Shown piece by piece: positions 18,346 to 48,947 of a DNA stretch of 64,000 bases; within the stretch, counting starts at the first letter, position 1, and each line of letters starts with the position of its first letter. Position numbers and translations under genes: made by a program. Source of the stretch: Caldilineaceae bacterium (GTDB lineage Bacteria; Chloroflexota; Anaerolineae; Caldilineales; Caldilineaceae). Below the pieces are notes generated by a model, which made no database searches, was not told where the DNA came from, and worked only from the letters and a program-made list of their open reading frames with translations. Location: NCBI GenBank assembly GCA_022821585.1, contig JAJEDI010000055.1, positions 248,001 through 312,000 on the forward strand, given 5' to 3'.

Positions 18346-19737
18346 TCAGGCGATGCGGCTATATACATCTCTACGCCTGCTACTGGCTAAAGTTTCATCC
18401 CCTCGCCCGAGGGCATTCCCTGCCTCCTCCCGTACCCGCGAGTCCTTCTCCGCGGCAAGGAGTGATTCCAGAAGGGCCGCGGCCCGAACGTCGCTGTGGC
18501 GGCGCAGCAGTTCGCCCAATCCCCAGGCAGCATGTCCTCGCGCCAGCGCAGAATCGTCAGTTGCAGCTGCCTCCAATCCTTCAAAAGCCGCCGGATCTCC
18601 CCAATTTCCAAGGGCGATGCAAACATTGCGCAGCATCCCGGACCGCCTCGCCCGCTTCAGCGGAGACCGCCCCCAGCGCTCCGCGAAAGCGCGCGGTTCA
18701 AGCCAGTATGGCATGCGGCGATCGAACCCCTCCAGCAAAGGCGGCGCCGTCCGCTCCTGTCTGGCCTCCAGCCCTCTCAGCAGCGGCGTTCGCTCCGCAA
18801 GCCGTTGATTCCAGGGACATACCTCCTGGCAAATGTCGCAACCGAATATCCGGTTCCCGAACAGGCGCCGCAACGATCGCGGAATCGGCTGGCGCGATTC
18901 GATTGTCCAAAATGAAATACAGCGTTGGGGGTCCAGATGAAATGGACCAATAAAGGCATCGGTCGGGCAGGCATCCAGGCAGCGCGTGCAGTGGCCGCAC
19001 GTGGCCAGCAGGAACTCACGGGCCTCTGCTTCCCTAATTTCGCGCTCGTTGCCCTGAAAATTCACTGGTGTCGGCCCGCTGCCCCGTTGCAACTGCCACG
19101 CCCCGTAGTCGCCCTTGGCCGACAAACCCGCTAGCGTTTCTTCCACACCTATGTCGTCGGAACGCACCGCGACCAGGTGTGGGTCAAAGGCCAGTTCCTC
19201 CGGTACCAGAAGTGTAGCCAGAAAGACCCAGCTGCCCCTCTCCGGGTGAATCGTACAGCAGTTCTTGCCTGTAAATCCGATTCCGGCCTTGTGCGCCCAG
19301 TCCCGCTCCAGCACAGGTCCCGTATCGACCAACCCCTTGCCCAAGGTCGAGCGGCCGGTACGGGCTCGCAACCAGCCGTCAAGCTCATATAGAAGCGGAC
19401 GAATAATCTCGTGATAGTCATCCCCCCAGGCATAGCTGGCGATGATGCCGCGCGACGGGTCGCCACGCACCTCCGGCGCCAGCTCAAAGCGATGATAGTC
19501 AACGCCCAGCACGATCAAAGAGCGGAAGGGAGGGCCCTCCTCAGCCAGCAGGGCCGGGCTCCGCCTTTTCTCCAGATTTCGCTCCAGGTATGCCATTTCT
19601 CCGGCCCGGCCCAGTCCGAGCCAGCGGGAAAAGAACTCTGCATGCGCCGCCTCGCCCACTTTGACAATTCGACAGAAGTCGAAACCAAGCCGGCGCGCCT
19701 CCTTCTTGAACGAAGCAGTCAAATCGTAGTCAGACAC
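18346..19737 (-). CDS. queG: epoxyqueuosine reductase
   Basis: Cobalamin- and iron-sulfur-dependent enzyme that reduces epoxyqueuosine to queuosine in tRNA, the last step of the pathway. The 463-residue protein has 'LIVLGVDYHR' and 'DTGPVLERDWAHKAGIGFTGKN' of the cobalamin domain, then two 4Fe-4S clusters: 'CGHCTRCLDACPT' near residues 247-259 and 'CDICQEVCPWNQ' near 310, then HEAT-like repeats ('ARGHAAWGLGELLRR') to the end. GTG 19737 with AAGGA upstream. About 40 extra residues ('DDIGVEETLAGLSAKGDYG...') stand before the first cluster motif, more than I recall for the family. No queA or tgt lies nearby. Confidence 0.95.
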   Translation of the reverse strand: MSDYDLTASFKKEARRLGFDFCRIVKVGEAAHAEFFSRWLGLGRAGEMAYLERNLEKRRSPALLAEEGPPFRSLIVLGVDYHRFELAPEVRGDPSRGIIASYAWGDDYHEIIRPLLYELDGWLRARTGRSTLGKGLVDTGPVLERDWAHKAGIGFTGKNCCTIHPERGSWVFLATLLVPEELAFDPHLVAVRSDDIGVEETLAGLSAKGDYGAWQLQRGSGPTPVNFQGNEREIREAEAREFLLATCGHCTRCLDACPTDAFIGPFHLDPQRCISFWTIESRQPIPRSLRRLFGNRIFGCDICQEVCPWNQRLAERTPLLRGLEARQERTAPPLLEGFDRRMPYWLEPRAFAERWGRSPLKRARRSGMLRNVCIALGNWGDPAAFEGLEAAATDDSALARGHAAWGLGELLRRHSDVRAAALLESLLAAEKDSRVREEAGNALGRGDETLASSRRRDVYSRIA

Positions 19738-19957
19738 GCGGAATTCCTTCGAGGAAATTCACGTTCAACCCCTGCACTCTACAGGCAATCGCACTGTTGC
19801 CTGGTCAAGTGCGAAGACTCAGTTTCGTGCCCCCGGGCCGGCCTCTATCAGTCTTGGCACTGGCGGTATGTGGCCGTTTGCCGGCCCTCCACCGGAAGCA
19901 GACGCATTCAACTTCACTCTTGGGGTTGGCGGAAAAGTCGCTCAGCAAGTCAGGCAC

Positions 19958-19986
19958 ATTATAATGGTAGCCAATCAGAGTATCAA
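19958..19986 (-). promoter_or_regulatory. near-consensus promoter for queG
   Basis: On the minus strand TTGATA, a 17-base spacer and TATAAT, the best sigma-70 match seen in the window. Transcription would begin near 19951 and give queG a leader of roughly 210 bases. The region 19738-19957 between holds no gene that I can support. Confidence 0.6.
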
Positions 19987-20002
19987 GAGGTAGGCACACT
20001 TG

Positions 20003-20525
20003 CGTGCATCCCAATGTTGGGGCAAACTTTCGTGTACCTCTGGAGGCACCCAATCCATGGTCACTTCCCATTCCAGTTTCCGCCAGAATAGGCGCCGTCT
20101 CTGACTACTATCTGCTGACTACTAACTACTGCAGTTCTGGGCGGTCGGGCCTTCGGCCCTCCGTTGTGCGGGGGCTCCGCCCCCGCAACGCCCCCGGCCA
20201 ACAACATGCCTCGTCGACCTGGTGTCGACATCAGTGACGGGTGCCCAAGCGAAAGTGTCTGGCCAGACCACGTCCCGCCAGTCCCATCAAATCCCCGTAG
20301 GTGCCGGCCTTGTGCCTGCCCTCGCATCCTCCCCAACTGACGGACTCCACCGTGCGGCCAAGCCTGACGCCTGCACTGCGACCCTCCCAAAGACGGTAAA
20401 CACTTCCAGTCACCGCTGGCTTGGATTCCCCGCCAGACTGTTCCCACCCCACATCTGGGATGTACCCACACCCAGATGATGGACCGACACAAGTCGTGGT
20501 GCCCGGCCGCACTCTTCCACGAAAA
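20003..20525. repeat. dispersed non-coding repeat, copy A
   Basis: About 0.5 kb of non-coding DNA that matches another stretch at 48282-48755 in the same orientation. Shared blocks include 'gcagttctgggcggtcgg', 'ggggctccgcccccgcaacg', 'aacatgcctcg', 'cgacctggtgtcga', 'tccccgtaggtgc' and 'ggccttgtgcctgccctcgc'. It contains two hairpins: gggcc-ttc-ggccc (20147-20159) and gcgggggc-tcc-gcccccgc (20168-20186) with a further outer pairing. The short open frames across it have no family resemblance. It occupies the 1.1-kb gap between queG and rpsO. I do not recognise a named element. Confidence 0.85.
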
Positions 20526-20696
20526 GATGCCTCAAATGACCATCCTGAGGCGTGCCTAAAGAGGGCCATTTACCCCTTTCCTTCCACCGCTCCCGCGCCC
20601 TGCCCCATCCCCTTCACCTAATGCGACTTCGCATTCCCCAGACCCCAACGCGACCATACGCAGGGGTCTTACGTATAGCGAGTTGAAGGAGAAAGT

Positions 20697-46900: not shown

Positions 46901-47983
46901 CTACGACTCGCTGTCAAGCGCTAGGGCGGACAGGTCATCTGGCAGTTCACAGATCGTCTCGGCCAGCAGACGCGCGCTCCGGTCGATGTCCTTGAGGACG
47001 ACCGTCTCCGCCGGTGTGTGCATGTTGCGAATCGGAACCGAAATCAGCGCGGTCGGGATGCCTGACTGCGAGACCTGCATCGCCCAGGCGTCGGTGCCGG
47101 AGTTTCCCGGCAGTACCTCATTCGTATAGGGAATTTCGTCTCGTTCAGCCGCGTTAACGAGAAACTCTCTTAAAACGGGATGCATGTTCGGCCCCAGCCC
47201 GATGGCCGGTCCGCTTCCCATTGGCAGGGCCTCATCGGGTGATGCCCCCGGCTGCTCCGCGTACGTTACGTCGAGTGCGATCCCCACGTCGGGCGCCACA
47301 TGAAACGTCGCCGTCTTGGCCCCGCGCAACCCAATCTCCTCCTGCACCGTGACCACGGCCGCGACATCCCAACCGTGGCTGCGGCCCTGCAGAATGCGCA
47401 ACGCCTGCAGCAGAACGACGACCGACACGCGATTGTCGAAGGCTTTGCCGGTAGCGTGTCCGTTACCCAGACTATCGGCGCTGCGGCGGATCGAAATGAA
47501 ATCGCCTACCGATACGTGCTCTGCCAGCCTGTCGGCGGCCAGTCCCACGTCGATGAAAAGATCCGCTTGGGCAAAGGGTTTCTCCCGCTCCTCCATGGAG
47601 AGAACGTGGGGCGGCCTGCTGGCGATCAGTCCCGGCAAATCGGAGCGGCCGTGAACGGTAACTTCCTGGGCCGGCAATGCCCCCAGGTCTACGCCGCCAA
47701 CCGGCGCGAAACGCAGAAAGCCCTTCTCCAGCCGCGTGACGATCAGCCCGATCTCATCCATGTGCGCGGCCAGCATCACCCGCTTCCCGGACGAGTTGTG
47801 ACCGCGCCTGAGACCAGTCAGGTTACCCAGCGTGTCGGTATGCAGTTCATCAACGAGAGGGGCCAGATGGTCGCAGACACGGGCGCGAATCCGGTCTTCT
47901 TGTCCGCTGACGCCGGGGATCTCGCTCAACTCCTTCAGCAGCGAGAAGGTGTCAGTTTCAGGTGCCTTGTTTTCGCTGTTCAC
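46901..47983 (-). CDS. M42 family aminopeptidase (copy 3)
   Basis: Third M42 peptidase, 360 residues. Metal residues are in 'MLAAHMDEIGLIVTRLE', 'FDNRVSVVVLLQAL', 'VQEEIGLRGAKTATFHVAPD' and 'VPIRNMHTPAET'. The start is taken as GTG 47983, which shares one base with the stop of the zinc-ribbon gene (TAGTG), a coupled arrangement; a frame further upstream lies inside that gene. First M42 gene in transcription order. Peptide degradation for nitrogen or carbon is the probable role. Confidence 0.92.
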   Translation of the reverse strand: MNSENKAPETDTFSLLKELSEIPGVSGQEDRIRARVCDHLAPLVDELHTDTLGNLTGLRRGHNSSGKRVMLAAHMDEIGLIVTRLEKGFLRFAPVGGVDLGALPAQEVTVHGRSDLPGLIASRPPHVLSMEEREKPFAQADLFIDVGLAADRLAEHVSVGDFISIRRSADSLGNGHATGKAFDNRVSVVVLLQALRILQGRSHGWDVAAVVTVQEEIGLRGAKTATFHVAPDVGIALDVTYAEQPGASPDEALPMGSGPAIGLGPNMHPVLREFLVNAAERDEIPYTNEVLPGNSGTDAWAMQVSQSGIPTALISVPIRNMHTPAETVVLKDIDRSARLLAETICELPDDLSALALDSES

Positions 47984-48195
47984 TATCCGCCGGGGACCGC
48001 AAGCTGCGCGCACTGGCCAAAGAGAGGAAGCACAAAAATCAACCCGACCACAATCCAGACCCAGACAGGCATGCCGAGTATCATCAGGCGGCGCTTCGGC
48101 TTGTTCTCTACAGGTCGCGGCAATACAGCCTGGCAGCGCCAGCAGACTTCCTTGTCATCGGGATTCCAGGTTCCGCATTCGGTGCAGTCGGACAT
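47983..48195 (-). CDS. small zinc-ribbon protein with one membrane helix
   Basis: Protein of 70 residues. Four cysteines form a zinc ribbon (Cys4, Cys7, Cys18, Cys21 in 'CTECG' and 'CWRCQ'), then a basic 'KPKRRL' and one hydrophobic helix ('MPVWVWIVVGLIFVLPLFG'). It heads the M42 operon and its stop overlaps the start of the first M42 gene. A role as membrane anchor or regulator for the peptidases is possible but unproven. The start could also be an ATG six codons upstream. Confidence 0.7.
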   Translation of the reverse strand: MSDCTECGTWNPDDKEVCWRCQAVLPRPVENKPKRRLMILGMPVWVWIVVGLIFVLPLFGQCAQLAVPGG

Positions 48196-48281
48196 ACGGC
48201 TACCACGTGTCAATCTGGTCGAGAATGGCCTGCTTCATGCTAACACAGTTAAGAGGCGTGGGCAAACGGTTGCCCAAAATG

Positions 48282-48755
48282 TGTGCATCCCAAATAGGAC
48301 ATAATGATCGTATTCTTACTGTGGCAAGAAAGCCGCGTTCGATTCCAGTTTCAATCTCTCGCAACTGAGGCGCCGCCACTGAACACTGCAGTTCTGGGCG
48401 GTCGGCCGCAAGCGGCCTCCCTTGGGCGGGGGCTCCGCCCCCGCAACGCCCCCCCTCCTACAACATGCCTCGCCGACCTGGTGTCGATATTCGTAACAGG
48501 TGCCCAGTCGAAAGAGTGTCGCCAAGCAGCGTCCCCTCAGTCCCATGAATTCCCCGTAGGTGCTGGCCTTGTGCCTGCCCTCGCCCCCCCAGTCAACGGC
48601 CCCGAATATAAAATAGACCCATCACCTGCCCTGCGTCTCTCCCAAATCCGGTAAACAGATCCAGTCACCGCCGGCACGTATTCCCAGCCAGACCGTTCCC
48701 AGCCCAATACCAAGAATCATGCAAAATACGCAGTCTGCCCGAACTCTTCCCGAAC
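48282..48755. repeat. dispersed non-coding repeat, copy B
   Basis: Second copy of the element at 20003-20525, same orientation, with point changes and small gaps. The first hairpin here reads ggccg-caag-cggcc (48404-48417), different bases from copy A but again fully paired; the second, gcgggggc-tcc-gcccccgc (48426-48444), is identical. It lies between the zinc-ribbon/M42 operon and the ABC exporter genes. No gene is supported in 48196-48973. Confidence 0.85.
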
Positions 48756-48867: not shown

Positions 48868-48947
48868 GTGTTCTTCGCGGCCCTTCGTGGCCCTTCGTGG
48901 ATAAAAGGTGTTCTTCGCGCCGCTTCGCGTGCCTTCGCGGATCGATC
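48868..48947. repeat. two 40-bp tandem repeats rich in TTCGCG
   Basis: Imperfect direct repeats at 48868-48907 and 48908-48947, both beginning gtgttcttcgcg and each made of smaller 10-base steps of the form cttcgYg. They lie 26 bases from the 3' end of the ABC permease gene and 113 bases from repeat copy B. No coding potential. Confidence 0.75.

Follow-up and report, generated by a model that had tools for sequence, protein, structure and literature searches.

The DNA analyzed here, which we call the window, is a stretch of 64 kb (positions 248001-312000 of contig C34) from a Caldilineaceae genome of 5.49 Mb in 102 contigs (G000). The PNPase of this genome shares 89% identity with that of uncultured Caldilineaceae OX638330.1, which places the host in this family of Chloroflexota. 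In the gap between queG (PF08331) and rpsO (PF00312), whose identities in the first-pass annotation are borne out by their Pfam families, lies a 466-bp element, copy A. A second copy, B, is found further along the window (Table 1). The two align over 327 bp at 78% identity and in the same orientation (E = 2.5e-68, blastn within the window), and all other window matches to A, besides itself, have E values of 0.5 or more. The long blocks that A had been said to share with 48282-48755 are real, and B extends from 48281 to about 48717. The span originally given for A, 20003-20525, does contain a true repeat, but its last 58 bp are flank, because the terminal repeats set the limits at 20002-20467. 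ORFs that overlap A (112, 143, and 226 aa) are mechanical and extend beyond the element.

Two hairpins had also been described, and both are as reported. GGGCC-TTC-GGCCC in A is exchanged for GGCCG-CAAG-CGGCC in B, and the second hairpin is identical in A and B. Just 3' of B, at 48870-48945, the window holds a run of CTTCGCGG/CTTCGTGG-type repeats; four patterns from this run occur one or two times each in 530 kb of G000.

Table 1. Coordinates in the window of the element copies, their parts, and neighboring features
Feature	Position	Strand	Basis or remark
MITE copy A, 466 bp, in the queG/rpsO gap	20002-20467	+	Family-model alignment, limits by terminal repeats; uninterrupted site in G005 and in G012
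Left terminal inverted repeat, reading GCGTGCATCCCAATGTTGGGGCAAAC in A and GGGTGCATCCCAAAATGGGGGCGAAC in the family	20002-20027	+	Copy alignment
Right terminal inverted repeat of A, reading inward GGGTACATCCCAGATGTGGGGTGGGA	20442-20467	-	Copy alignment
Left 8-bp target duplication of A, worn, GCACACTT; G005 empty site ACACCCGA	19994-20001	.	
Right 8-bp target duplication of A, worn, ACACCCAG	20468-20475	.	
Hairpin 1 (GGGCC-TTC-GGCCC in A); the family has two alternative forms	20147-20159	+	
Hairpin 2, GCGGGGGCTCCGCCCCCGC, within the best conserved block of the element	20168-20186	+	
queG promoter, putative target: TTGATA (19986-19981), 17-nt spacer, TATAAT (19963-19958)	19958-19986	-	Consensus match only
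queG (epoxyqueuosine reductase), downstream of the putatively targeted promoter	18346-19737	-	PF08331, PF13484
MITE copy B, older, worn right end	48281-~48717	+	Family-model match, positions 2-463; left junction shared with G006
Weak promoter-like site (TTGCCC, 17-nt spacer, TAGCAT; 8/12) beside the left end of B, at a distance of 15 bp	48237-48265	-	Consensus score

Ends, target duplications, and copy number

Miniature inverted-repeat transposable elements (MITEs) are short and gene-less, carry terminal inverted repeats, are flanked by target duplications, and are mobilized in trans. In the family of A and B, the element is 466 bp long, has no transposase gene, and ends in inverted repeats of 26-28 bp; target duplications of 8 bp and empty sites are present. 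The consensus of 48 copies from the same genome starts with GTGCATCCCAAAATGGGGGCGAAC and ends with GTTCCCACCCCAAATCTGGGATGCACCC, and the two versions of the inverted repeat are slightly unlike (AAAATGGGGG vs. GATTTGGGGT). Individual copies differ by insertions and deletions. When up to one mismatch is allowed, the 12-bp end GGGTGCATCCCA occurs 84+88 times in G000, compared with 7+5 times for the reversed control; a 16-nt end pattern occurs 83+75 times in G006 (0+0 for its control).

Target duplications at the ends, proposed early on as something to look for, are present. Across 37 complete elements, the mean identity of the flanks is 0.561 at a length of 8 bp, against 0.269 (sd 0.029) for exchanged flanks, and is 0.293 at 7 bp, 0.411 at 9 bp, and 0.259 at 10 bp. 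In 12 of the 37, the 8-bp flanks agree at seven or eight positions, with clean examples such as CTTTCCTC (L002) and GTTCAGAT (L062). The duplication of A itself is worn, its left and right versions matching at 4/8 positions.

Empty counterparts were found in relatives at three sites. The site of A is uninterrupted in G005 and G012. At C34:207.4 kb, AACCCTGA flanks the G000 insertion on both sides and occurs once in G012, where the site is empty. At C34:245.0 kb it is G000 that is empty, and G006 carries a copy between GTATCAAT and GTATCGAT. The left junction of B, on the other hand, is the same in G000 and G006, so B is an old, shared insertion.

A search of G000 with copy A, another check suggested at the outset, returned at least 47 matches in the best 40 of 279 candidates, and the same search with B at least 41 in the best 40 of 246. 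In 530.7 kb of G000, a profile search found 18 hits, which correspond to 16 loci (two split ones were joined; fragments are included) and, by extrapolation, to ~165 loci in the genome. Many contigs begin or stop inside a copy. All 17 genomes of the genus have matches to A at an E value of 0.01, unevenly spread (G007 and G016 have six each, the best with E values of 1e-14 and 2e-4, respectively). At 1e-5, a 161-bp stretch around the hairpins has matches in 16 of these 17 genomes and in none of 29 other genomes of the family Caldilineaceae. There is no match to A at 1e-5 among 72,556 plasmid and 50,697 phage records.

Spacing between element ends and promoters

Because A lies 15 bp from the -35 box of queG and a characteristic spacing has been published for the ISKra4 group, we tested all ends (no more than seven mismatches of 26, no more than three in the first 12, with 90 bp of flank). 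The promoters counted here are consensus matches rather than mapped transcription starts. For the first run, identical flanks were removed, leaving 221 ends, and the best promoter per flank was taken (spacers of 15-19, with a spacer penalty and a limit of 8.5). An outward promoter was found beside 66 ends, for 55 of them at 14-17 bp, whereas letter-shuffled flanks had a mean of 0.49 at 13-17 bp (maximum 3 in 100 shuffles). The same flanks contain only three inward promoters. In the second run, described next, inward promoters show no peak, with no more than three at any offset. Offsets in this control are measured starting at the far end of the flank, which leaves only the total and the flatness meaningful.

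In the second run, any end that had a flank 12-mer in common with an earlier end was removed, and spacers of 16-18 were allowed without penalty. Here, 55 of 180 nonredundant ends face an outward-pointing sigma-70-like promoter that scores at least 9/12 and whose -35 box lies at 13-17 bp, compared with an average of 0.67 in nine other 5-bp windows. (That the count is 55 in both runs is a coincidence.) At this score the -35 box is most often 15 bp (27 ends) or 16 bp (19 ends) away, and offsets outside 13-17 bp have no more than two ends each. Ends typed as belonging to the 460-bp MITE account for 36/117 at 13-17 bp, against 0.44; the corresponding fractions are 4/16 for ends of a mini-MITE (see below) and 15/47 for ISKra4 ends. 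Only 0.1% of random genome positions have such a promoter, and it was found at 0/27 ends of IS982, a control transposon.

The left and right ends of the MITE are used alike (16/48 and 20/69, second run). Among 30 complete elements, a promoter scoring at least 8 is present on one side of 18, on both sides of three, and on neither side of nine. No promoter was seen at the C34:207.4 kb insertion, and the weak site beside B points toward an M42 peptidase gene (46901-48013). An ORF of at least 80 aa starts 55-400 nt on from 51/55 promoter-side ends and 70/88 other ends, a comparison of little weight given that some ISKra4 ends were counted as MITE ends and that the ORFs are mechanical. The promoter at C34:245.0 kb (TTGACA-18-TAGAAT) is also present in the empty site of G000. 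As promoters occur in the empty sites both there and at A, they preceded the insertions.

The region upstream of queG provides the most detailed comparison across genomes. The queG promoter pattern is present in 13 of 14 compared genomes (G002, G003, and G010 were left out), G016 being the one without it, and the 13 include G005 and G012, both of which lack the element. By eye, element-like ends precede this promoter at 15 bp in G000, 14 bp in G006, 17 bp in G015 (worn), and 21 bp in G004, and there are none in G005, G012, or G007. In G013 and G001, the hairpin block lies in the same interval upstream of queG. G000 and G006 carry the element at the site of A, and the nearer relatives G005 and G012 do not. 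A single ancient insertion before queG, precisely lost several times, is less likely than repeated insertion, because the nearest relatives are empty and the spacings differ. We therefore favor independent insertions at a recurrent target in G000 and G006, with spacings 1 bp apart. The two copies are 82% alike (their flanks are 55% and 63% alike), and we draw no inference from this about constraint on the hairpin block because two independent insertions of similar copies explain the value.

Based on these patterns, the MITE would insert, in either orientation, at sites that lie ~15-16 bp upstream of the -35 box in sigma-70 promoters, duplicating 8 bp there. Targeting would depend on recognizing the promoter itself or the RNA polymerase bound to it, and landing upstream of promoters would spare genes, which could permit the high copy number. 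Such an insertion rule is unusual and, as far as can be read from the junction sequences, is well supported and fits the ISKra4 relatives. Insertion upstream of sigma-A promoters, with 13-17 bp to the element end, has been described for TnGBS/ISLre2 elements and for members of the ISKra4 group, and contact with RNA polymerase was proposed for TnGBS (Guerillot et al. 2014; PMC3942029). A preference of ISLre2 and ISKra4 elements for positions 50-250 bp from the nearest gene has also been reported (PMC9208149). The MITE shares its end pattern and the 13-17-bp spacing with the ISKra4 group (p-MULT 4, Mutator-like DDE; Guerillot et al. 2014; PMC3942029), for which promoters on either side are described (PMC3942029) when the two ends are nearly complementary, as here. 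By eye, ISKra4 copies of this genus have duplications of 8-9 bp, similar to the 8 bp of the MITE. The MITE differs from the group in having no transposase gene and a length of 466 bp rather than ~1.45 kb; within the family, the lineages found here may belong to the ISKra4 group or to ISMich2. TnGBS/ISLre2 elements (p-MULT 3) likewise insert ~16 bp upstream of the -35 box, but they are autonomous and oriented, with the right end beside the promoter (PMC3942029), whereas the two MITE ends are used alike.

The promoter spacing has already been published for ISKra4-group elements, and a MITE as such is an ordinary kind of thing: short, without genes, and with terminal inverted repeats and target duplications. 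A review of prokaryotic MITEs (PMC10969869) gave no hits for the terms ISKra4, ISLre2, IS256, Mutator, insertion specificity, or Chloroflexi. In the open-access literature searched, we found no report of promoter-spaced MITE insertion. Autonomous ISKra4/ISLre2/TnGBS elements are known to insert at a fixed distance upstream of promoters; the family described here would add a gene-less element of high copy number, which could spread without breaking genes and yet alter their upstream surroundings. The dozens of sequence-defined junctions form a natural set for studying how transposases find promoters. They may also serve as promoter finders in uncultured Caldilineaceae, as the end of the element often marks a likely -35 box.

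ISKra4-family elements as candidate partners

An ISKra4-type transposase likely moves the MITE, judging by the element ends. An IS of the ISKra4 family (Mutator-like DDE) from the same genus would supply the transposase, and ISKra4-family elements of ~1.45 kb that are bounded by ends of the MITE form do occur in the genus. The closest correspondence is L281 (G004), whose right end matches the right end of the MITE at 22/22 positions and whose left end matches the left at 20/22, compared with 18/22 for opposite ends. Its protein pieces match NF033572 (E = 4e-36 and 2e-28). L283, for which the right end alone was seen, has 20 matches to the right end of the MITE and 18 to the left. In L292 and L286, the right end is closer to the left end of the MITE (20 and 21 of 22 vs. 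18 and 19), and in L282 it is equally like both. The family likeness of the ends appears strong; an end-for-end likeness, clear in L281 and L283 only, depends mainly on L281.

No intact ISKra4 transposase with exactly the MITE ends was found among the 17 genomes of the genus. Copies with matching ends (in G002, G004, G007, G012, and G013) are broken or partial and fall under the NF033572 cut-off, and matches above the cut-off, present in four of the 17 genomes, have other end variants. The nearest copy above the cut-off with an unbroken frame is L276 (G009), with ends that start GGGTGCAGTCCAAATT. In G000, there are no NF033572 matches at 1e-8, and the G009 protein finds only five contig-end fragments of 26 residues each, near the end of the transposase. 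The fragments are located at the ends of C45, C77, C98, C99, and C101, with breaks ~140 bp inside the same ISKra4 end. Five such contig ends in G000 suggest a multicopy, recently active IS that collapsed in the assembly. The fragments continue into GGGTGCATCCCAAATTGTTTG ends, which represent a second ISKra4 lineage and fit a 102-bp mini-MITE better than the 466-bp MITE. Because assembly breaks inside repeats of this type, the cognate transposase may be missing from the G000 assembly rather than absent from the genome. Overall, the partner family seems well supported and the exact partner copy less so.

The 102-bp mini-MITE of G000 (e.g., C68:139821-139922) resembles the 466-bp MITE in its ends, which begin GGGTGYATCCCARATT. 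Unlike those of the 466-bp MITE, however, they fit L277 of the second ISKra4 lineage, at 15/16 and 21/22 positions. It is also present at L017 and L029, and at G000:C68:139821-140033 (L222), two mini-MITEs form a tandem pair that has TCAAGCGC on either side. G014 (L279, L288, L295, L300, L303, L305) and G011 (L278) contain a third ISKra4 lineage, which has GGGTGCATCCGAGATTTTTGCGAG ends and unbroken frames of 355 aa and adjoins MITE-like ends at several G014 loci.

The hairpin block and other readings

The element is very probably a promoter-targeting MITE of ~466 bp, for which the likeliest supplier of transposase is an ISKra4-family IS that occurs in this genus and has almost identical ends. 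Of the three possibilities offered by the first-pass annotation, the nonautonomous mobile element is retained, based on terminal inverted repeats, 8-bp duplications, empty sites, and ISKra4-like ends, and the small RNA and the REP/BIME element are not. REPs are short palindromic units linked to RAYT transposases. The idea that such palindromes are involved here, with a RAYT transposase as the mover, would account for a dispersed element that is intergenic in the window and contains palindromes. However, REP units are given as 20-40 bp (PMC3733652), and a 466-bp unit with 26-28-bp terminal inverted repeats, 8-bp duplications, and ISKra4-like ends is unlike them; we consider this extremely improbable. 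There is even less to be said for mobilization by IS982, a candidate that arose because two family ends 1381 bp apart in G013 enclose an IS982 transposase (NF033520, E = 1.6e-58). Near-identical copies of this IS (e.g., L259, L270, L247) align only over ~248-1279 of the 1381-bp unit, so the IS982 is nested inside a MITE copy, and its own ends, AGGGCCTTATGCTAG, lack the promoter spacing (0/27). The nested structure refutes IS982 as the autonomous partner, and the chance that it moves the MITE is negligible. The unit is G013:C1:2260692-2262072 (L226), and the IS982-family element inside it has 11 matches in G013, which are 99-100% identical and have unbroken frames. It is also highly unlikely that proximity to promoters results solely from selection against insertions in genes, without targeting. 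In favor of that explanation, both A and B are intergenic, and nine of the 30 complete elements lack a recognizable promoter at either end, but it does not account for the sharp peak at 15-16 bp with no more than two ends at any offset outside 13-17 bp, the three inward promoters against 66 outward ones, or the IS982 ends.

The remaining alternatives concern the hairpins. The first-pass annotation had taken changed sequence with kept pairing as evidence of selection on structure. Over 51 copies, however, none of the five pairs of hairpin 1 is changed on both sides, and the covariation term from RNAalifold is -0.13 kcal/mol (11 pairs, one changed on both sides). The apparent compensation is a variant of the block in another register, seen in 11 of 58 tabulated copies (58 forms were tabulated out of 149 distinct hits, the others being outside the text patterns used). 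Most of the tabulated forms are GGGCC-N3/5-GGCCC and the 11 are GGCCG-CNNG-CGGCC; because the two forms are in different registers, their changes do not compensate column by column. In addition, B differs in this block from the G006 copy that shares its left junction. A family of structured noncoding RNA genes with hairpins under selection nevertheless has some observations in its favor. A folds better than shuffled sequences (z = -2.61 on one strand and -2.86 on the other), both-side changes occur in two of the eight pairs of hairpin 2 (one cell each), and the covariation score of the two hairpins, 0.019 vs. 0.010, is above all 500 shuffles, although related copies can give this result without structure. 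Also, 23 of 30 invariant columns over the 51 copies are in the hairpin block (positions 138-193). On the other side, no Rfam family reaches its gathering score in the window, a search of 19950-20600 up to an E value of 1 gave one meaningless Rfam hit, a consensus scan found no promoter-like site inside A, and empty sites, target duplications, and terminal repeats require no RNA. We regard this reading as very unlikely, which would take a tempting but unsupported structured RNA family out of consideration.

Conservation of the hairpin block could reflect conversion between copies, subfamily mosaics, or function. The block is also found at otherwise poorly matching places, and G015 copies have the ends and the block in common while other parts differ. 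It is possible, but unlikely, that the family serves throughout the genus as an upstream module with a regulatory or insulating role, its hairpin block having been taken into service upstream of many promoters. If so, the ~165 copies in G000 would put the same GC-rich block upstream of promoters, repeatedly that of queG, and the block would be best conserved, even in worn copies, because it blocks read-through or supercoiling, for instance, or binds a protein.

Two minor observations were made in other genomes of the genus. At G015:C1:5106061-5107146, the hairpin block occurs at five listed places in steps of 201 bp with one gap of 402 bp, possibly a tandem array of part of the element. At G016:C1:636731-638947, a PNPase match contains one in-frame TAG, which indicates either a sequencing error or a broken gene.
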